Of a stretch of DNA of 64,000 bases, positions 38,454-52,096 are shown in pieces; the stretch's first letter is position 1; every line of letters starts with the position of its first letter. The stretch lies in contig OY751488.1 in assembly GCA_963565915.1 (NCBI GenBank), forward strand, positions 4,526,001 to 4,590,000, written 5' to 3'. Made by a program: the position numbers and the translations under genes. Under the pieces are notes generated by a model. The model saw only the letters and a program-made list of their open reading frames with translations, was not told where the DNA came from and did not search any database. Source of the DNA: Entoloma clypeatum (Eukaryota > Basidiomycota > Agaricomycetes > Agaricales > Entolomataceae).

Positions 38454-38911
38454 TGTTATGGTTGACAAACCCATGTGATGCTTAGGCAGAGAGGCTTAAG
38501 TAGCAAAGGTGGATACCAAGGTGATTGCTAGATCTGGGGAATACATGCAATGTATGTACCCTATATATACTAGAAGGTCGAGTCATCTAGATGACTCTAG
38601 AGCGGTTCCGGTCTGACTCCAGAAGCGGACCCGGAGTAGGTGTCTATGGTAACTGCTGCGGCATGAGTCAGAGTATCTAAGTATAGTCCAATAAGTAACA
38701 CGATGTCAAGGATGTGTGAGAGTAACTATCTAGATATGGTAACGATGACCATACTGTAGTGAGTAAGCGGAGGCCTGGGCCCGAATGATGTAAAAGTGAA
38801 TAGTAAGCATGAAACCAATAGATAAGATGAAACTGGCCATTAATCAGATAAGGCCTCTATGTCTTGTATCTTGTCTGAGCGATCAATGCCATGGATAGCG
38901 AATCCATAACA
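38454..38911. repeat. solo LTR (family A), copy 1
   Basis: 458 bp beginning TGTTATGG and ending CCATAACA, flanked by the 5-bp duplication CCGGA (38449-38453 and 38912-38916). It interrupts the DUF6532 core exon. It matches the copy at 51639-52096 with roughly ten differences by eye. Its own duplication shows that the two are independent insertions, not the ends of one element. Confidence 0.92.

Positions 38912-39818: not shown

Positions 39819-39847
<29 letters not shown>
39819..39847. repeat. GA dinucleotide repeat
   Basis: About 14 GA units in a non-coding part of the DUF6532 gene. Confidence 0.9.
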
Positions 39848-39852
<5 letters not shown>

Positions 39853-40333: not shown

Positions 40334-40882
40334 TTAAAATCACAGATGGATAAATGTGAACCAACAGGAAAAAAAAAAGAGAAAGCTCAAAAACCTTACA
40401 TGCTGGTTCTGGTACTTTTTGCTTGGAGAGACGGCCACCTGCCAGTAGAAGGTGAGGTATATCATCTCATCAATATAAATAGAATGAATAGAACGAAAGG
40501 TCAAATACGTTGCCATGGTTGTGCAGAGTCAGCGGACTTTGTTGCAACAGTGGTGGTTGTTTTTCATGGGGCCATTATAGAGAGATAGGAAAGGTGTTGA
40601 TAGAACAATAGAAAGCGCCTGCACTAGGAGAAGAAAAATAGTGAGAAGGAGGATTGAACTCAAAGCGCCTGCGCTTGAGAGAGAATATGGGAGATAAGGG
40701 GGGAGAAACTGGGGAACGCAACAGTTGTCAAAGTGGCTATTTAGGGTGGGACGCTCAGCAGGACCCTTCATGGCAACCACATGGTACAGGAACAAGTTCC
40801 GCTGTCGCTTAAGGATACCACCTGCTTTTCTTCTATGTTTGATTGAATGCAGCCCTGTTTCACCCAAATCCAACCAGCTATC
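40334..40882. other. divergent promoter region of the Plavaka element
   Basis: About 550 bp separate the starts of the DUF6532 gene and the transposase gene. No specific promoter motif is obvious. Confidence 0.45.
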
Positions 40883-41867
40883 ATGCCCAGTACCTGTCCT
40901 GGCTGTCAACAAACCTTCACAAGCAGGGGGTTCAAAAATCATGTACACAATGGCATTGACCCTCAATGCAAGCACATGGCACCATCCAAAATTCCAAGCT
41001 CGATCATCGAGAACAGTGCTGAAAACAGAATTGCGGTCGAACTGACAGGCAATTTCTTTGGAAATTACACGGACTACAATAGCTGCAACTTTGGGATGGA
41101 AGACTCAACATCAGATTCCATGTATGTAAGTGAACCAGAGGTGGATGGTGATGGATACGATACAGGGGTGGGGCCTGATGAGGACGATATGGATGCAGAC
41201 GACCTTGATGGAGCAAATAGAGAGGATGAGCATGGGCTAGAACCTCTGCGCCCTGGCGGCAGCCTTCCTGGGCAAGGTACAGATGATGAAGAACATGAAC
41301 CGCTTCCAAGTTAGATTGGGAGGTTGGGCAGTGGGCAAAGTTACGTGGTCTGAGCTCAACATCATTCACTGAACTGATGAAGATTGAAGGAGTGAGTTAT
41401 ACTGTCATTGTGTTCATGACAAATAGCCTCACCATTCAACGCCTAGGTCGTGCAGCGCCTGGGATTGTCCTTCAAGAACTCCGTCGAGCTGAAAAAGCTC
41501 ATCAATTATGCTCTCCCTGGCCGCCCTCGCTTTGAGCGCCATGAAATCATGGTCGATAATGAAGTCTTTGATGTTTACTTGCGGGACATATTTGCTTGCA
41601 TACGTGCCTTGTTTGGTGATCCAGATTTTGCGCCATACCTTGTTTTCATGCCCAAGAGGCACTACATGAACAAGGAGAAGACAAGTCGCATGTATCATGA
41701 TATGCATACTGGGCGGTGGTGGTGGGCGACACAGGTAACATGTTTGTTTGAGCTTGTGGGCGCTACTCACGCTCAGAGCTCTCTTGCAGGAACAAGTTGA
41801 AATTGACAAGCCCAGCGCAACCATTATCCCCCTCATTGTTTCAACTGACAAAACCCAACTCACTCTC

Positions 41868-42342
41868 TGTTAAGAACTGATCGACAAAACGTCGGAGCTA
41901 CGTCGGACGCGTCGGAAGGTCGGAAGGTCGGAGCGCGTGCAACGTAGGGGCAAGGACTTGGCTTCAACTTGTGTGTTGCGCCCTCGCTAATACGTTGGTG
42001 TCCTTATTTCGGAGGATCGGAGGATCGGAGGTCGGAGGTCGGACTCAAGTTAAGAGTCGGAAAGAGGACGGGAGGTATGATGTCGAATCTAAGTTGATAT
42101 TCAAACTGAAGCTAATACACGATTCTACATAAGTTTAAATACTATGTCGGAGGACGTGTGGCTTCGTCGGAGTCGGATAACGAGTGGCTGTCGGAGATTC
42201 TTAACATAAGTAAAATGATCGGATGTAAGTAATGTACGTAGTAACGAGATTCATAACAGTAAGTATGCATAATAAGTATTAGTCAAAATGTCGGAGGTGT
42301 CGGGATTGGTCGGAAATCGTCGGAATGGATCGGAATGTAACA
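41868..42342 (-). repeat. 3' LTR of the chromovirus
   Basis: 475 bp, ends TGTTA...TAACA, apparently identical to 48471-48945. It contains 20 copies of TCGGA on the plus strand and none of TCCGA by hand count. Confidence 0.95.
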
Positions 42343-42356
42343 GTATTTCCCCCTTA
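42343..42356 (-). other. 3' polypurine tract
   Basis: On the coding strand of the element the bases just before the 3' LTR read TAAGGGGGAAATAC, the expected primer site for plus-strand DNA synthesis. Confidence 0.75.
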
Positions 42357-42508
42357 GGGCCGAACCTATGAGGCCTAAGGACCTAGGTGGTCGGTGCGCG
42401 TGAACTGCGTCATGTGATGCGTTGGTTGAAAATACCGTCTGAGTGGTTTTTTCTTCTTGTTCCCCCATTCTCTTTTCGTTTTAAACTCTTCCGAAAATAA
42501 ACCTCAAT

Positions 42509-43469
42509 ATGTCGGCATCCGATTTTCAAAAGGAGATGGAGGCGCTGCAGGCTAAGCTCGCGGAGGTGGAGGCGAAAAAGCGAGCAGCGGAGGAGGAGGC
42601 TGCGAGGAAGGCTGAGGAGGAGCGGAGAGCGGAGGAAGAGAGGGCTGCGGAGGCGGCACGGTTAGCGGAGGAGATGCGTCGGGCGTCGGAGCTGGCGGCT
42701 CAGAAAAGGGCCGATGAAGTGGCCGCTGCGCAAGGCGCATCGAGCAAGGGGTCGGGGGAGCCGCAGGCGGAGAAGAAGAAGAAGACGACGAAGAAGAGGA
42801 AGGTGGAGGAAGTGTCGGCGATGGTTGGAGAGGGGTCGGGAGTCGGGGTCGGGGTCGGCACCTGTGATAGGTGCATTGTGAAGGGCGTCGAATGCGAACA
42901 CGATGAGTAAGTCCCTCTTTGGTTCGTCTCTTCTGTTTTAACCTTGTGTTTTTAGGAATAAGTCGTCCTGCAAAGGATGTATCAAAGACAAGAAGAAGTG
43001 CGAGGTCGGAGCGTCGGAGGGGAAGTCGGAGGTGAAGGAGGTGAAGAGAACGGTGAAGGTGGTTAAGGGGAAGAAAAAGGCGTCGGAGATGCCGTCGGAG
43101 AGTGGGTCGGAGGACACCGTCTTGGGTGTCCTCAAGATGATACTGGCGGAGACGAGGCAGGTGAGGCGACTGCTAACAGCAGTCGAAGGCTCGGTGAACA
43201 CCGAGTACCAACCCAAGTCGCCGGAGGTGTCGGAGGAAGGGTCGGAGTCGGAGATGGATACGGCGGAGGAGACGCACGAGTTGAGACTGGAGAAGAGGAT
43301 TGCGAGAAGGATTAGGAAGGACCTGGTGAATAGGAAAAGGTTGGAGTTGCCGGAGCTGTCGGACGATTCCGACATGTCGATTTCGGAGCCGTCGGAGAAG
43401 GCGGAGTCGGGTAAGGAGGAGTCGGACAAGGAGGAGGGTCCGTCGAACAAGAAACAACGTACTAAGTAG
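42509..43469 (+). CDS. antisense accessory gene of the chromovirus: coiled coil plus Zn2Cys6-like cluster
   Basis: Exon 1 (42509-42906) and exon 2 (42956-43469) flank a 49-bp intron with GTAAGT and TTTTTAG ends and give 303 residues. Residues about 5-75 form a highly charged coiled coil rich in Glu, Ala, Arg and Lys. A basic segment (KKKKTTKKRKVEE) follows, then six cysteines spaced C-x2-C-x6-C-x8-C-x2-C-x6-C (CDRC, GVEC, CKGC, KKC), the spacing of fungal Zn2Cys6 DNA-binding domains. The splice junction falls inside this cluster. The rest is acidic and Ser-rich. It ends 27 bp from the end of pol, tail to tail. Because it is antisense, its intron would not be spliced from the genomic RNA, which explains how the intron survives retrotransposition. 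Role unknown; a DNA-binding regulator of the element is an inference. Confidence 0.85.
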
Positions 43470-43496
43470 ATAGAATAGTACTTGTTTTTTCTTGTT

Positions 43497-46400
43497 TCAG
43501 AGCGATGTGAGCGGACCCGGTTTGTCGGGATAAGCGGAGTGAAAGTCGGAGACAAGCTCGGGGGCGTTTTCCAATTCATTGGCTGGTAGCCAAGAGAATT
43601 CTTCATCAGTGTTTTCATATCCTAACCAACGGACGAAATATAGTAGCTTGCAGCTACGTCGTCGGTCGATCTTTGAGTCGACTATTTCAGCGATCTCGTA
43701 CTCAAGTTCTCCGTCAATGTCAATCGGAGGAGGCGGAGGTTGGGTCCGATTCGGAATGGTGTTCGGAGTTGCGGGTTCAAGCATGGAGACGTGGTAGACG
43801 GGGTGAACACCGCGGAATGTGTCGGGGAGTCGGAGGGTAAAGGAGTGTGTGCCGGGTTGTGCAATGATCTCGTATGGTCCCAAGTACTTTTCTGAGAGTT
43901 TCTTGGATGGGCGTGTTGTGCGGAAGAACTGTGCTTTGACGAAAACCTGTTGTCCGACAGAAAATGTCGGAGGTGCGATCCGATTATTGTCGGAGGACTT
44001 CTGGTAACGTCGTTGAGCGTCGGAGATGGTGGCTTTCAGTTCTTGGTGAAGTTCGTCTAAGTCGGTCACGAAGGATCGGGCTCGGGAAGAGGCGAGGTCT
44101 CGTTCCGGGTGAACAGTAATGTTCGGATGGTAACCCTTGTTAGCAAAGAAGGGAGATATGCCAGTGGTAGCACTAGGTGCGTTGTTGTACGCGAACTCCG
44201 CAATCGGAAGGAGAGCGGACCAGTTGTCCTGTTGGTAGTTGCAGAATATCCGCAAGTACTGTTCGAGGGTCTGGTTAGTGCGTTCGGTTTGGCCATCGCC
44301 TTCGGGGTGGTAACCGGAGGTGAAGTGGAGGGTCATGTTTAGAGCCTTTCTGAGAGATTGGAAGAATCGGGAGACGAATTCGGGGCCGCGGTCGGAGGTG
44401 ACATGTTCGGGGACGCCGTGTTTAGAGAAGACGTGTAGTACGAAAAGTACGGCAAGGTCTTCGGAGGTGCAGTGAATTGTTGTCGGAATGAAAATACTTT
44501 GTTTCGTTAATCGGTCAACGATAACGAGGATTGAATCAAAGTTGTCGGAGGTCGGAAGGGTCTCGATGAAATCCATTGAGATAGAATTCCAAGGACGTTC
44601 GGGGATCGGAAGCTGTTTGAGTAGGCCGTAAGGCTTGTGTCTTTGTGGCTTCGATCGCATGCAAGTGGTACATGACTTGCAATAGTGTTTAACGAAATCT
44701 CGTATTCCGGGCCAGGTATAATCACGCTGAATGAGACTGAGTGTCTTGTTCTGACCTGGGTGTCCAGCAAGCATATGATCGTGCTTGTGCTGTAGGACTC
44801 GGAGTCGGAGGTCGTCGGAGTCGGGAACGTATATCCGATTGTCATGTCGGAGGAAACCATCGGGGTCGAGAGACCAGCGGGGTTTAGGATCTTTAGAAAG
44901 AGTGTCGTAAAGAGTGTCGGAAGGGAGTGCTGTGAGTATGTCGTGGTGAAGCTTTTCTGTGTCCATGATAATGGTTGCACGGAGGACGGGCTCAAGGAGT
45001 TGAGTCGCGCGAACTGAAGCGGAGAGCTGTTCTTGCGAAAAGACTGGTCGGAGGTTGGTCGGATTGATGTCGACGTAGTCGCTATTTCCCCCTTTAGGGT
45101 AGACATCCCAACGTCTAGTTAGAGAGTCAGGTTTAGTTCCCAATCGGCCGGGGCGGAATCGGATGACGAGGTTGAACTGAGAAAGGTATTCCGACCATCG
45201 GACTTGTCGGCGTGAAAGAACTTTGGTGGTGGCAAAATACTCGAGATTTTTGTGGTCGGTAACGACGTCAATCGGAGTACCGGAGCCTTCGAGGTAATGG
45301 CGCCAAATTTTAAACGCTTCGTAGATGGCAAGAAGTTCCTTATCGTGGGTGTCATAGTTTACTTCGGGGGCCGTGAAGGTGCGGGAATGGAATGCGACGG
45401 GGTGGACTTCATTGTCGGAGGTGACTATCGACAGAATAGCCGCTAGGGCATAGTCGGATGCGTCGGTTTCGACAATTATCGGAGAGTCGGGAATCCAGTG
45501 TGTCAGGATCGGAGCGGTGGTAAATGCCTTTTTCAGGTCATTAAAAGCGGTTCGAGCGTCGTCGGAGAACAGCCAAGTGGCATGTTTCCTGGTTAAACGA
45601 GTGAGTGGAATAGTGATGTTGGAATAGAATGGAATGAAACGTCGGTAAAAGTTTGCAAAACCTAAAAAGGACTGGACGTCCTTCACTCTGCGCGGTTCAG
45701 GCCAATCCTGAATAATCTTGACTTTCGCTTCCGACATTTTGAGTCCGTCGGGAGAAAGGATAAATCCAAGATATTCTACAGTTTCGGCAGAGAAATCGCA
45801 CTTGTCGGCGCGGGCGTAAAGACCATGTTGTCGGAGTCGTCGGAGGACTTCTCGGACATGTTTTTTGTGTTCCTCGGGGTTGTCGGAGTAGATCAGGATG
45901 TCGTCGAGGTAAACGGTAACGCAGTTGTCCAGAAGGTCGGAGAAGATGTCGTTCATAAAACGTTGAAAGGCTGCAGGTGCGTTAGACAATCCGAATGGCA
46001 TGACTAACCATTCAAATGATCCATAGCGAGTGCGGAATGCAGTTTTCCATTCGTCACCTTCAGCGATGCGGACTAGGTGGTATGCGTGTCGGAGGTCTAT
46101 GGTGGTATAAACGCGTGCTTTTCCGGCAGTGGCTAAGAGGTCGGAGATGAGCGGAAGTGGGTATCGGTCCTTCTTTGTGATTTTGTTCAGGCCTCGGTAG
46201 TCGACGCATAGTCGGAGTGATCCATCTTTCTTTCGGACGAAGAGGATCGGAGCGCCGTGAGGTGAACTAGAAGGTTTGATGAAACCGATATTGAGGTGCT
46301 CATCGATGAAGTCTCGGAGGGATCCAAGTTCGGATTGCGAGAGTGAGTACATCGGACCAATCGGAGGGGAAGTACCTTCCTCCAAATTGATTTTGAGGTC

Positions 46401-47200
46401 GTACGGTCGGTGGGGTGCAAGGGTGTCGGCTTTTTTCTTACTGAATACATCAGCAAAATCGTGGTATTCCTCGGGTATGCCAGAGAGGTCGGGAGCGTTG
46501 TCGGAGACAGACGCGGAATTGGCGGAGATGTCGGAGAGGTGAACGCGGAAAGCGTATGCCCCAGGAGCTTTACATGCATGGAGATATGCGGCTGCATTGA
46601 CCATGGTAATCTGTGGCGGGTCGGAGGTGTTCGGAGTGAGCGGATCGGAGGTGCCCATCGGAGAGGGCGGACACTGCAGAGGTGGCGGAGCTGCCTCAGC
46701 AGTCGACGTCGGAGTCGGACTCGGAGTGTCGGGTAACGTAGAACGGAATAAGATACTGCCCAATACCCAGTCAATCAACGGATTGTAGCGGGTGAGCCAG
46801 TTGTGTCCTAGAACCAAATTACAAGACGAATCGAGGGTTGTCACGTAAAACGCGACGGTCAGAAGTTCACCGGAAGGAAATCGGAGAGGAAGATCGATAG
46901 ATTGTGTGATATAAGTATTTGAAGAACCGTCAAAAAGTTTCAAAACCATAGGTGAAGGAATCGGAGTCGGAGATAAGTTTAAAGAAGAAATAAATCTGGT
47001 ATCTGCGAAGCAATGTGTAGAACCAGAATCAATAAGAGTCTTTATCGGAAGAGAATCGGAAAAGGTCGGAGATATCAAATCAATACATAGAGAGTTCGGA
47101 TTTGAGAGAGCGGACGCATTGAGTCGGAGGGTTTCCAAAGGTGCACGAAAGGAGTCAACGCAATCCCCAGTACGTGCTGGAATCTGAGGACTGCTTACTA
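43497..47200 (-). CDS. pol: Pol polyprotein: protease, RT, RNase H, integrase, chromodomain
   Basis: About 1,230 residues in the -1 frame relative to gag. In order: an aspartic protease (TLIDSGSTHCFADT), reverse transcriptase (YRGLNKITKKDRYPLP; catalytic VYLDDILIYS), RNase H (VETDASDYALAAIL; VTDHKNLEYF), integrase with an HHCC finger (H-x3-H region then C-x2-C in CKSCTTC) and the DDE core (MDFIETLPTSD; VTSDRGPEFV; YHPEGDGQTERTNQ). A C-terminal chromodomain (LLYFVRWLGYENTDEEFSW) marks it as a chromovirus and would direct integration by reading a chromatin mark. No stop or frameshift is seen. There is no ATG at its start; expression is expected by frameshifting from gag. Confidence 0.95.
45082..45097 (-). 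other. central polypurine tract-like site
   Basis: On the element's coding strand CTAAAGGGGGAAATAG nearly repeats the 3' polypurine tract. It lies between RNase H and integrase coding parts, where it encodes PKGGN. A second priming site of this kind is known in some Ty elements and lentiviruses. Confidence 0.55.
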
Positions 47201-48424
47201 TTTTTTTGACTCGGTCGTCTTCTCCGATTTGTCCTCAGCTTGGGCCGCGCGGGCTTTTGCTTTGGCGTTAGAAGACGATTTCTTCGAGCAGTCGGAAGCC
47301 CGATGACCAACGTTGCCGCAAAACATGCATAAATTATTGTCAAATCGTCGTTGGCGTTCTTGGGGAGTTAATTTCCCATCTTTGCCAAGTTTGTCGGAGA
47401 GGGCGGATTTCGGAGAGGTGGATGACGATTTTTGTTGTTGTTGCGAGTTGGGTTTAGACGATGAGGAGTTGTTGTTGGAGGATGATGAAGCGGGGGTCTG
47501 TTTTTTGTCGGATTTGTCGGATTTGTCGGATTTCGGAGTAGATTTGTCGGAGGAGCGCGATTTCTCGCGTTGACGTTCCCAGTAGCGAGCATCAATGTTA
47601 TGGGCCATTACTTTCAACTCGGCGAGAGTCTTTGGTTTGGGAAAAGTCCCCAAAACGTCCTTGATGCGTTCCGCTAAACCGGTATAGTACCGATATCGGA
47701 GCGCGCCATCATCCCACTGCGTGCGAGCGGAAAGACGTTTGAAGTCCACGTTGTAACGTAGGATCTTCTGATTGTCGCGCATCCGAAGGTGATCCAGGCT
47801 ATCCTCTGCTTCTCCGGTCGGATCGATAGGTCCGAATTCGGATCGGAGGATGTGCACAAAGGCGGACCAGTCGTCCAACCAGACAGAGTCGTCGTCGGAC
47901 TCTCCCAAGAGGGTGGGCTCAAACCATTCGAGCGCGGTTCCTCGGAGGTACGACAGAGCGAAACTGACTTTGTTATCATCATCGTCAAAGGCGGGGTTGT
48001 TTCGGAAATATAGTGTGCATTGTGCGAGGAAACTGGTGAGTTTCCGAGAGTCGGAACCGTCAAAAGTGTCGGGTTCCTTCGATTTCTTTTTCGGAGTTTT
48101 CGGAGTCTCTCTACGTCGGAGCTCCTGCGTCATAAGCATAATTGCTTCGGCGAGGTTTGGAGTTTGCTCGCGACGGAAAGGATTGTTATCGTCAAAAGGA
48201 GAGGTCGGCGATTTGAAAGGACGGAATTCTTCAGGAATCGGAGGTCCTTGTGTCTGAGGTGTTCGGAGACGAGGTGTCGGAGATATGGGGTCAGGTTTGG
48301 GTGCAGATTCTTCTGCGGGAATATCTTGGAACGTATGTAGAAATGTCGCCCTGGTGTCCTGCAGGTTTGAAGCTTCCGCTGCGGCTGCTGCTGCGCGGGA
48401 GTTCTGTGTGTTGCGGGCTGCCAT
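47198..48424 (-). CDS. gag: Gag protein with CCHC zinc knuckle
   Basis: 408 residues from an ATG at 48424 to a TAG at 47198. The middle is a retrotransposon gag domain (LTSFLAQCTLYFRNNPAFDD; RGTALEWFEP). The C-terminal third is basic and ends with one CCHC knuckle (CMFCGNVGHRASDC), which binds the genomic RNA. It forms the virus-like particle. The start lies 46 bp after the 5' LTR. The stop follows directly on a run of seven A. Confidence 0.93.
   Translation of the reverse strand: MAARNTQNSRAAAAAAEASNLQDTRATFLHTFQDIPAEESAPKPDPISPTPRLRTPQTQGPPIPEEFRPFKSPTSPFDDNNPFRREQTPNLAEAIMLMTQELRRRETPKTPKKKSKEPDTFDGSDSRKLTSFLAQCTLYFRNNPAFDDDDNKVSFALSYLRGTALEWFEPTLLGESDDDSVWLDDWSAFVHILRSEFGPIDPTGEAEDSLDHLRMRDNQKILRYNVDFKRLSARTQWDDGALRYRYYTGLAERIKDVLGTFPKPKTLAELKVMAHNIDARYWERQREKSRSSDKSTPKSDKSDKSDKKQTPASSSSNNNSSSSKPNSQQQQKSSSTSPKSALSDKLGKDGKLTPQERQRRFDNNLCMFCGNVGHRASDCSKKSSSNAKAKARAAQAEDKSEKTTESKK
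47201..47207 (-). promoter_or_regulatory. -1 ribosomal frameshift site between gag and pol
   Basis: In the gag frame the heptamer reads A AAA AAA, the canonical X XXY YYZ slippery form, and is followed immediately by the UAG stop of gag. A -1 slip leads straight into the pol frame, which stays open. Confidence 0.75.
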
Positions 48425-48470
48425 AACTGGAATTTGAAATACGGATAAGCGAGTGGCAGTTTGAATATAC

Positions 48471-48945
48471 TGTTAAGAACTGATCGACAAAACGTCGGAG
48501 CTACGTCGGACGCGTCGGAAGGTCGGAAGGTCGGAGCGCGTGCAACGTAGGGGCAAGGACTTGGCTTCAACTTGTGTGTTGCGCCCTCGCTAATACGTTG
48601 GTGTCCTTATTTCGGAGGATCGGAGGATCGGAGGTCGGAGGTCGGACTCAAGTTAAGAGTCGGAAAGAGGACGGGAGGTATGATGTCGAATCTAAGTTGA
48701 TATTCAAACTGAAGCTAATACACGATTCTACATAAGTTTAAATACTATGTCGGAGGACGTGTGGCTTCGTCGGAGTCGGATAACGAGTGGCTGTCGGAGA
48801 TTCTTAACATAAGTAAAATGATCGGATGTAAGTAATGTACGTAGTAACGAGATTCATAACAGTAAGTATGCATAATAAGTATTAGTCAAAATGTCGGAGG
48901 TGTCGGGATTGGTCGGAAATCGTCGGAATGGATCGGAATGTAACA
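48471..48945 (-). repeat. 5' LTR of the chromovirus
   Basis: 475 bp, apparently identical to the 3' LTR. The sequence after it shows no obvious match to a tRNA 3' end, so the primer type is unresolved; self-priming as in Tf1 is possible. Confidence 0.95.
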
Positions 48946-49819
48946 CTCTCTTCCGTAACAAGAGTGCTTATCCTGTCTACTTAACAATTGGCAATATACC
49001 TCAAAAACCCTCAACCCGTGCATATGTTTTACTTGGTTATCTGTCCATGACTCATCTTGAACGTGTTACCAACACCAGTCCTTTAACCTCCCGAAGCTTC
49101 ATTGGGCTTCCCATTACTGTACGTCTCCGCCATCAAGCTATATGGAACAACAGATAATGTCAACACTCAGTATATCGAACGACTCCACATTGATCTCGCC
49201 AAGGATGCCTATATCGCCACCAACTGCAAAGACAAGTTTTCCCCAAATGACTTTATGGCTTGAATGGAAGGAGAAGATTCTTCATCACTCCCAATACATC
49301 AAATGGTGAGAAAGCAGATCTCCTGGCTTCCAGTCAGCCGAATGGCTCCCACCAGGCCTCGAGATTGATCGTTCTATACATTTGGCAAAGCATCCCATCA
49401 TCTGGGGGGTGAGGTTTGATGACCTCAGCAAACTCTATGGTGCCCCATTCTTTCGGACGGCATTAGCCCGCTATGTCACGCGCATCAACGAACCCATGCT
49501 CAGACCCACTCAAATAGAAGCACGCCTCTGGACGATTCATATCCCATTTCAGAAGGTTTCCATTTGGCATCGCTTGAAGTATCTATGCACCGACCTGTGG
49601 ACCAAACTAATGTCAACAGCTGATGCTGTACTTGTTTGACCAGAAACAAAGGATTGGCATGGGCGCGAGGTGCCGGGACGGTTTGATACAGTGTTGGTCA
49701 ATGATGGTACAGGTGAAATGACTGGTATGAAAGGTGAGTTTACTACTACTATTTCCCACTGTGGTGGGAGTTCCAACGATATTTTTCATCCCAGGTTACG
49801 ATGTTGCTCATGTCTGTGT

Positions 49820-51638: not shown

Positions 51639-52096
51639 TGTTATGGTTGACAAACCCATGCAATGCTTAGGCAGAGAGGCTTAAGTAGCAAAGGTGGATA
51701 CCAAGGTGATTGCTAGATCTGGGGAATACATGCAATGTATCTACCCTATATATACTAGAAGGTCGAGTCATCTAGATGACTCTAGAGCGGTTCCGGTCTG
51801 ACTCCAGAAGCGGACCCGGAGTAGGTGTCTATGGTAACTGCTGCGGCGTGAGTCAGAGTATCTAAGTATAGTCCAATAAGTAACACAATGTCAAGGATGT
51901 GTGAGAGTAACCATCTAGATATGGTAACGATGACCATACTGTAGTGAGTAAGCGGAGGCCGGGGCCCGAATGATGTAAAAGTGAATAGTAAGCATGAAAC
52001 CAATAGATAAGATGAAACTGGCCATTAATCAGATAAGGCCTCTATGTCTTGTATCTTGTCCAAGCGATCAATGCCATGGATAGCGAATCCATAACA
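51639..52096. repeat. solo LTR (family A), copy 2
   Basis: 458 bp, ends TGTTATGG and CCATAACA, flanked by the duplication TACTT (51634-51638 and 52097-52101). It lies just after the stop of the Plavaka transposase. About 2 percent different from copy 1 by eye. Confidence 0.92.

Follow-up and report, generated by a model that had tools for sequence, protein, structure and literature searches.

The locus described here raises the question of whether a retrotransposon carries, on the strand opposite to gag-pol, a maintained gene for a DNA-binding protein of its own, and, if so, what that protein might recognize. A first-pass annotation of a 64,000 nucleotide stretch of the Entoloma clypeatum genome (contig OY751488.1, positions 4,526,001 to 4,590,000; hereafter the window) had proposed a two-exon antisense gene inside a pair of LTRs. 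Our analysis confirmed this arrangement, with exons at 42509-42906 and 42956-43469, a product of 303 amino acids and an identical LTR pair.

A two-exon antisense gene in a young chromovirus

The element in the window is a young, recently inserted chromovirus, because its two 475 bp LTRs are identical in sequence, the CTCTC target-site duplication is intact and its pol matches chromovirus profiles. The LTR pair, the target duplication, the order protease-RT-RNase H-integrase and the chromodomain are those of Ty3/gypsy chromoviruses, and we refer to the element as family A. The antisense gene is on the plus strand, gag-pol being on the minus strand, and is located between pol and the 3′ LTR. Features are given in window positions.

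41863..41867, no strand: target-site duplication CTCTC, left copy
41868..42342, minus strand: 3′ LTR with respect to gag-pol, 475 bp; the stretch densest in CGGA (20 on the plus strand, 0 on the minus strand)
42343..42508, plus strand: leader from the LTR to the antisense ATG, 166 bp; no CGGA on the plus strand, one on the minus strand
42509..42906, plus strand: antisense exon 1, ATG at 42509; charged helix, basic patch and first zinc-cluster half
42863..42895, plus strand: first half CDRCIVKGVEC, amino acids 119-129; aligns with the second half of Pfam Zn_clus
42907..42955, plus strand: antisense intron, 49 bp, GTAAGT...TTTTAG, phase 2, between Cys3 and Cys4
42956..43469, plus strand: antisense exon 2, stop TAG; second zinc-cluster half, C-terminal helix and basic tail NKKQRTK
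42969..43001, plus strand: second half CKGCIKDKKKC, amino acids 138-148; basic, with Lys 145 invariant in families A, B and C
43497..47234, minus strand: pol frame with profile matches to protease, RT, RNase H, integrase and chromodomain; its sense strand has 87 TCCG and 15 CGGA
47235..48424, minus strand: gag region starting at its ATG; lower boundary taken from the pol frame, gag stop not delimited
48471..48945, minus strand: 5′ LTR with respect to gag-pol, 475 bp
48946..48950, no strand: target-site duplication CTCTC, right copy
41868..48945, plus strand: element-wide CGGA array, with CGGA 181 times on the plus against 25 times on the minus strand, and TCGGA 138 against 14 times

The predicted spliced product of 303 amino acids contains CDRCIVKGVECEHDENKSSCKGCIKDKKKC and runs from a charged N-terminal helix through a basic patch and six cysteines (C-x2-C-x6-C-x8-C-x2-C-x6-C, three on either side of the intron) to a second helix and a basic tail that looks like a putative nuclear signal; both helices, and the coiled coil in the N-terminal one, were assigned by eye. 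With 27 bp between their stops, the antisense gene and pol do not overlap. The leader is the probable place of a promoter and 5′ UTR for the antisense gene, and the polypurine tract of the minus strand was placed, by eye, in the same 166 bp. Pairs of Cx2Cx6C motifs on the same strand and 40-160 nt apart occur once in the element and not at all in the remaining 56.9 kb of the window, and the pair in the element exceeds chance. Protein-database searches returned no relative at E 1e-3, in a database that is possibly poor in fungi, and a profile built from the antisense proteins of families A, B and C (see below) had no match among solved structures up to E 1. A viral contig (L040) was dropped as a homologue; it matches residues 16-58 only, a low-complexity helix.

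Copies of the antisense gene and selection on its product

We searched the genome (60 Mb, 20 contigs) and obtained at least 153 matches to exon 2 of family A, partial ones included. A total of 28 family A loci were examined, namely the 8 first listed, with the window copy as L001, and 20 diverged loci picked by choice. Same-family pol was found on the opposite strand, just downstream of the antisense gene, in 27 of the 28, the exception being L020, which is cut short next to another family. Homologs are thus not confined to host genes outside elements. LTR pairs were checked in the window copy and in single copies of other families, with L009-L028 left out of this check.

Start and splice sites could be parsed in 22 of 29 sequences (the 28 loci and the window) and not in the other 7, and 18 of the 22 parsed copies encode at least 285 amino acids with all six cysteines, which does not fit a neutral decay of the cysteines. 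Two of these 18 copies, L017 and L020, continue into other sequence at the 3′ end. Exon 1 has a length other than 398 in 11 of the 22 parsed copies, and in nine of these 11 the difference is a multiple of three. The frame-breaking lengths 402 and 406 lead to truncated products of 120 and 126 amino acids, and two further copies with exon 1 in frame, L015 and L018, also have truncated products (204 and 51 amino acids). Intron lengths among the parsed copies are 48, 49, 51, 52, 53 and 55, and follow no multiple-of-three rule.

Among the window copy (42956-43469) and L009-L028, exon 2 occurs in two C-terminal alleles of about 74% DNA identity. Since both are found on elements with pol 97-99% identical to that of the window and with closely similar exon 1, the pairing of near-identical elements with either C-terminal half points to recombination or modular exchange between elements. 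Between the alleles dS is about 0.63 and dN about 0.25. Compared with the window copy, dN/dS of the C-terminal part was 0.40 in L010, 0.40 in L016 and 0.37 in L023, with Fisher p values in the coding frame of 6.9e-5, 8.5e-5 and 1.8e-5, respectively; all three involve the window copy and the same allele and so represent one split seen thrice. The other five frames gave dN/dS of 0.67-1.47, none significant, and the part under test does not overlap pol. The check on dN/dS between copies that the first-pass annotation had called for thus came out significant in the coding frame only: the C-terminal part of the antisense gene is under purifying selection. For exon 1, which carries the first zinc-cluster half, values were 0.76, 0.14, 0.19 and 0.42 (L010, L016, L023 and L020), with too little divergence for a firm estimate. 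A chance frame or a decaying captured fragment is ruled out by the conserved intron, the cysteines and dN/dS.

A search with diverged pol identified two related families, B (L029, L030) and C (L031, L032). Pairwise alignments of pol among A, B and C show 76-77% amino acid identity. Long direct repeats at both ends and an antisense two-exon gene are present in L030, L031 and L032; in L029 the gene was not seen, and another element comes after pol. The intron lies between Cys3 and Cys4, in phase 2, in all three families alike. At the protein level B is 38% and C 26% identical to A, and a three-row alignment has as invariant columns the six cysteines, Lys145 and 37 further columns, many of which fall in low-complexity stretches. 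Exon 2 has at least 153 genome matches for family B and at least 150 for family C, pieces included, and two older C-like copies (L034, L035) also have both zinc-cluster halves. To judge from these comparisons the antisense gene is conserved and old and maintained in three related families, since the same intron recurs in two families related to A, purifying selection is detected and exon 2 has more than 150 matches. This agrees with the earlier suggestion of a maintained antisense gene.

A zinc cluster with its halves apparently in reverse order

Zn2Cys6 domains have six cysteines spaced x2, x6, x5-12, x2 and x6-8, their basic, DNA-contacting half usually comes first, and their usual target is CGG. 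The cysteines of the antisense proteins lie within these spacings, with a central spacing of x8 in A, x11 in B and x10 in C, and the proteins further resemble fungal Zn2Cys6 factors (PF00172; e.g. Gal4 and Hap1) in having a basic half with a conserved Lys. They differ in that the more basic half comes second (CKGCIKDKKKC in A, CWRCQRLKRSC in B, CQRCKDGKRVC in C), that the cluster is split by an intron and that it is encoded by a retroelement. The Zn2Cys6 spacing claimed earlier therefore stands, but the halves look to be in the opposite order and Pfam misses the domain in its natural order.

Specifically, the isolated domains in natural order scored 12.6, 13.0 and 12.2 bits (A, B, C) against Zn_clus (PF00172), with about half of the profile aligned and E values of 0.12-0.21, all below the curated cut-off. 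With whole proteins, the same profile gave no match up to E 1 for A, E 1.4 for B and no match for C. The first half of A aligned to the second half of the profile and the second half of B to its first half, as a permutation predicts; the first half of C aligned to the first half of the profile, contrary to permutation. When the halves were swapped, scores rose to 21.5 bits for A, 25.0 for B and 19.3 for C, against a cut-off of 21 that C does not reach, and the swapped domains of A, B, C and of a C3 copy (16.6 bits, under the cut-off) all aligned over nearly the whole core. As controls, Gal4 scored 48.5 bits in natural and 38.4 bits in swapped order, swapped halves from mixed families 20.8 and 19.9 bits, two first halves 15.2 bits and two second halves 14.9 bits. 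Swapping improves the score consistently, though by a modest amount and with short peptides. The domain of C in natural order had its best match to ADD_DNMT3 (E 0.014), a weak one under the cut-off.

A canonical Zn2Cys6 domain is rejected on the order of the halves, and the zinc cluster looks permuted, its halves swapped. The alignment of the swapped halves to Zn_clus makes a DNA-binding regulator, as the first-pass annotation had supposed, the likeliest predicted product. The result suggests that Zn2Cys6 clusters possibly exist in permuted order that curated profiles miss; in the open-licence literature we found no text in which circular permutation and Zn2Cys6 occur together.

A one-strand CGGA array over the whole element

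The strongest evidence for self-regulation is a CGGA motif that extends over the whole element, beyond the antisense gene at 42509..43469. It was fully counted in one copy per family (the window copy of A, L030 of B and L032 of C). The strand that encodes the antisense gene has 25.6, 25.7 and 28.6 CGGA per kb in A, B and C, against 3.5, 4.4 and 8.5 on the opposite strand and 3.8 and 3.6 elsewhere in the window. The counts of 181, 187 and 213 compare with 50.1, 47.1 and 57.1 in dinucleotide shuffles, the maxima of 200 shuffles being 67, 65 and 75. The opposite strand has counts within the shuffles in A (25) and B (32), and in C, with 63 against 34.2, exceeds the maximum of 49. In A the motif is spread over the LTR (20 in 475 bp), exon 1 (8), exon 2 (18), pol (87) and gag (27), and is absent from the leader on the plus strand and from the intron. 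The preceding base is T in 76% of cases in A, G in 48% and T in 39% in B, and T in 41% and G in 33% in C; after the motif G is favoured. All three families are enriched in direct CGGA pairs at a distance of 9 bp, to which coding periodicity may contribute.

Within pol, the TCCG counts of A, B and C are 87, 88 and 106, against 38.8, 45.6 and 57.8 in shuffles of each pol's own codons that keep protein and codon counts; the motif occupies all three reading frames. Codon usage is therefore rejected as its source. Editing of one precursor context is likewise rejected, each one-base neighbour being expected fewer than 10 times. The one-strand enrichment of CGGA in LTRs and coding sequence thus goes beyond codon usage.

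Motif sites at homologous places are shared in 40 of 83 cases between A and B, 57 of 87 between A and C and 49 of 84 between B and C, with codon-shift means of 1.9-2.7, and much of this sharing is explained by common ancestry. For NTC codons that precede CG, comparison between families shows the synonymous third-base C retained at 52 of 63 motif sites, compared with 168 of 305 others (p 2.4e-5). Differences were not significant, with few controls, for Ser TCC before G (60 of 73 motif sites, 18 of 26 others, p 0.13) and for T before Pro CCG (42 of 80 and 5 of 8, p 0.82), and TC before Arg CG, kept in 67 of 67 and 127 of 129 (p 0.43), leaves no room to differ. When the three main codon-matched tests are pooled, the numbers are 154 of 216 against 191 of 339 (p 0.00025), the family pairs not being independent of each other.

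A context-matched count of CpG decay covered 20 less diverged copies of family A, with cells counted by copy. Decayed cells amounted to 145 of 2201 for motif CpGs, compared with 295 of 3494 for other CpGs (p 0.011), 144 of 2002 for other TCG (p 0.46) and 33 of 600 for nCGGA (p 0.40). Exactly one decayed copy was seen at 50 of 139 TCGGA CpGs, 71 of 226 other CpGs, 43 of 129 other TCG and 9 of 40 other CGGA sites. In a cruder count that left out L020 and L028, which have few sites, motif CpGs were better kept in 24 of 26 copies, in some of them barely; L001 was tied and in L002 they were less well kept. Among older copies, motif CpGs had decayed less than others in L019 (13 of 71 against 41 of 123), L021 (7 of 66 against 35 of 137), L022 (34 of 127 against 80 of 232) and L027 (23 of 74 against 51 of 117), and had no advantage in L025 (43 of 97 against 65 of 182, kept less) and L026 (44 of 118 against 70 of 197, equal). 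A shielding of motif CpGs from decay or methylation is not clearly borne out by the context-matched count. Resident copies lose the motif about as readily as any CpG, so selection in the replicating lineage probably preserves CGGA.

Further families of the genome

Four further families allow the gene and the motif to be considered separately. Family E (L033 829-6929) is a multi-copy chromovirus with 435 bp LTRs whose pol ends at most 15 bp from the LTR; no Cx2Cx6C was found in any frame of at least 20 codons, so the antisense gene is absent. In sense orientation E has 110 TCCG against 36.7 and 81 CGGA against 38.6, with the one-strand bias of A-C in its LTRs and end regions and a mixture of both strands in pol. 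In family D (L020 2671-8774), which lacks the gene, pol and LTR are separated by about 540 bp; there are five scattered half motifs and no close Cx2Cx6C pair. CGGA is not in excess there (23 against 30.3 in dinucleotide shuffles), and TCCG on the sense strand, seen 36 times against 20.9, just matches the highest value of the 200 shuffles, a mild excess. Between its pol and 3′ LTR, D also has an additional sense frame (165 codons, L020 7868-8403). In 4 kb, mostly pol, TCCG and CGGA were counted 7 and 27 times in family F and 13 and 18 times in one copia family, where base composition predicts 7.8 and 15.9, and 10.9 and 13.2, respectively. The 2.5 kb downstream of F and of copia, whose 3′ ends were not delimited, held one single half motif and no pair.

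Gene and motif therefore co-occur in three related families, yet the motif is not limited to carriers of the gene. Because A, B and C are related, the pairing may go back to one ancestral coincidence. Family E is a candidate freeloader on the motif.

A possible role of the antisense protein

On balance we lean towards the reading that the antisense protein, a predicted DNA-binding protein with a permuted Zn2Cys6 cluster, binds the CGGA of its own element and keeps the copies expressed or unsilenced. The antisense mRNA would start at or near the 3′ LTR, and its intron would be spliced out between the zinc-cluster halves; the protein might dimerize or form higher multimers via its helices and act in trans on the element, with CGGA along the element's own DNA as its target. 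Self-recognition is the simplest assumption, since the protein is self-encoded, its class reads such a motif and the motif spans the element. The effect would be activation or anti-silencing rather than repression, which we favour because the gene-less E gains sites, a gain that is useful with a helper and not with a repressor; the motif excess of E is the single argument for this direction. A further-reaching proposal, which we hold tentatively and put somewhat short of an even chance, is that the lineage rewrote its whole genome, including synonymous sites of gag-pol, into a one-strand CGGA address read by its own antisense-encoded protein with a circularly permuted Zn2Cys6 cluster, and that E took over the address but not the gene and depends on the regulator of the others. 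The findings suggest that a regulatory motif may shape synonymous sites across a whole mobile genome. Three families with a candidate regulator and a candidate address, together with E as a natural test of trans action, are available in a single assembly.

A bias to one strand over 7 kb is no requirement of ordinary DNA binding. Sites on both strands might let the genomic RNA pair with itself, an idea that is contradicted by the pol of E with its motif on both strands.

The antisense protein could instead be a self-limiting repressor that binds LTRs and body via CGGA and lowers sense transcription. HTLV-1 HBZ turns down sense transcription by other means. An antisense promoter in the HTLV 3′ LTR is a known precedent (PMC7264820), and such a repressor would suit an LTR that is the densest part in motifs and a gene whose own leader is free of CGGA on the plus strand. 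We nevertheless consider a repressor improbable, since a repressed bystander should lose the motif and the gene-less E has it in excess; the exon 2 matches, at least 150 per family, are a weaker point against it.

Similarly unlikely, in our view, is that a host factor or RNA machinery reads CGGA and is exploited by all motif-rich families, the antisense protein doing other things. Such a reader would account for the motif without the gene in E, and the strand bias of A, B and C would fit an RNA function, for which the motif on both strands of the E pol is unsuited. Furthermore, the product of the gene has a zinc cluster belonging to a class generally known to read CGG, and the other families show little, with no CGGA excess in D and the counts given above in F and copia. 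That the motif arose as a by-product of mutation or codon usage, with the antisense frame open because CGGA-rich sequence favours open frames, is very improbable: TCGGAG does encode Ser-Glu, which is frequent in exon 2, and G-C skew in the element is strong (0.27-0.31), but the enrichment exceeds own-codon and dinucleotide shuffles, no one-base neighbour suffices as a source, motifs in resident copies decay about like other CpGs, and intron and cysteines are conserved with dN/dS under 1.

Comparison with known systems

To our knowledge, the means by which active transposon copies maintain themselves are understood in only a few cases, among them the plant VANDALs. VANC proteins are not known to have a Zn2Cys6 cluster. 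VANC21 is reported to bind the motif YAGTATTAY both in vivo and in vitro and to counteract silencing (PMC5735166). As in the VANDAL DNA transposons of Arabidopsis described there, the element studied here combines a protein of its own with a short motif repeated in its own DNA; it differs in being a retroelement with an antisense gene, in having the motif in gag and pol as well, where the VANDAL motif is in non-coding parts, and in that binding is predicted.

HTLV-1 HBZ, a regulator made from a spliced antisense transcript, combines basic and coiled-coil regions; it is a bZIP protein and is not known to have a zinc cluster or a motif array. The antisense gene described here, as predicted from its sequence, shares the splicing and the basic and coiled-coil parts. 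Botrytis cinerea, whose Boty-like chromovirus is considered next, is an ascomycete. The initial view that typical gypsy elements have gag and pol only was too strict, since antisense genes are present in Grande, Retand and Boty (brtn). In plant Ty3/gypsy elements antisense ORFs between pol and the 3′ LTR are described for Grande (gene23), RIRE2 and Retand, the last with TRP28, a predicted DNA-binding protein, and about half have tandem repeats there, in the portions of the sources consulted (PMC7264820, PMC11963269). The position is the same here, with the gene between pol and 3′ LTR in most copies (27 of 28 family A loci, and also in B and C). The differences are that those are plant elements, that Retand is a non-chromovirus, that TRP28 is another domain and that those sources, in the same portions, report no motif in coding regions. 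A further case is the antisense gene brtn of the Boty-like chromovirus (Zhao et al. 2011, cited in PMC8365987, PMC4227169 and PMC7264820), likewise an additional gene of a fungal chromovirus; the likeness is by description, as given in the citing papers.

A search of the open-licence literature, mostly by titles and the beginnings of abstracts, found neither a zinc-cluster antisense gene of a retroelement nor a motif array in gag-pol.

Surroundings of the insertion

The chromovirus is flanked by a direct repeat (38454-38753 and 51639-51938) of at least 300 bp, 98% identical and 13185 bp apart, given which it may be nested in an older element. Two open frames, 40847-41314 and 41447-41800, adjoin the insertion; the former begins with MPSTCPGCQQTF, a start that we take to be reminiscent of Plavaka-type transposons of Agaricomycetes. 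A GA microsatellite is located at 39820-39848, within a region of long open frames on the minus strand.
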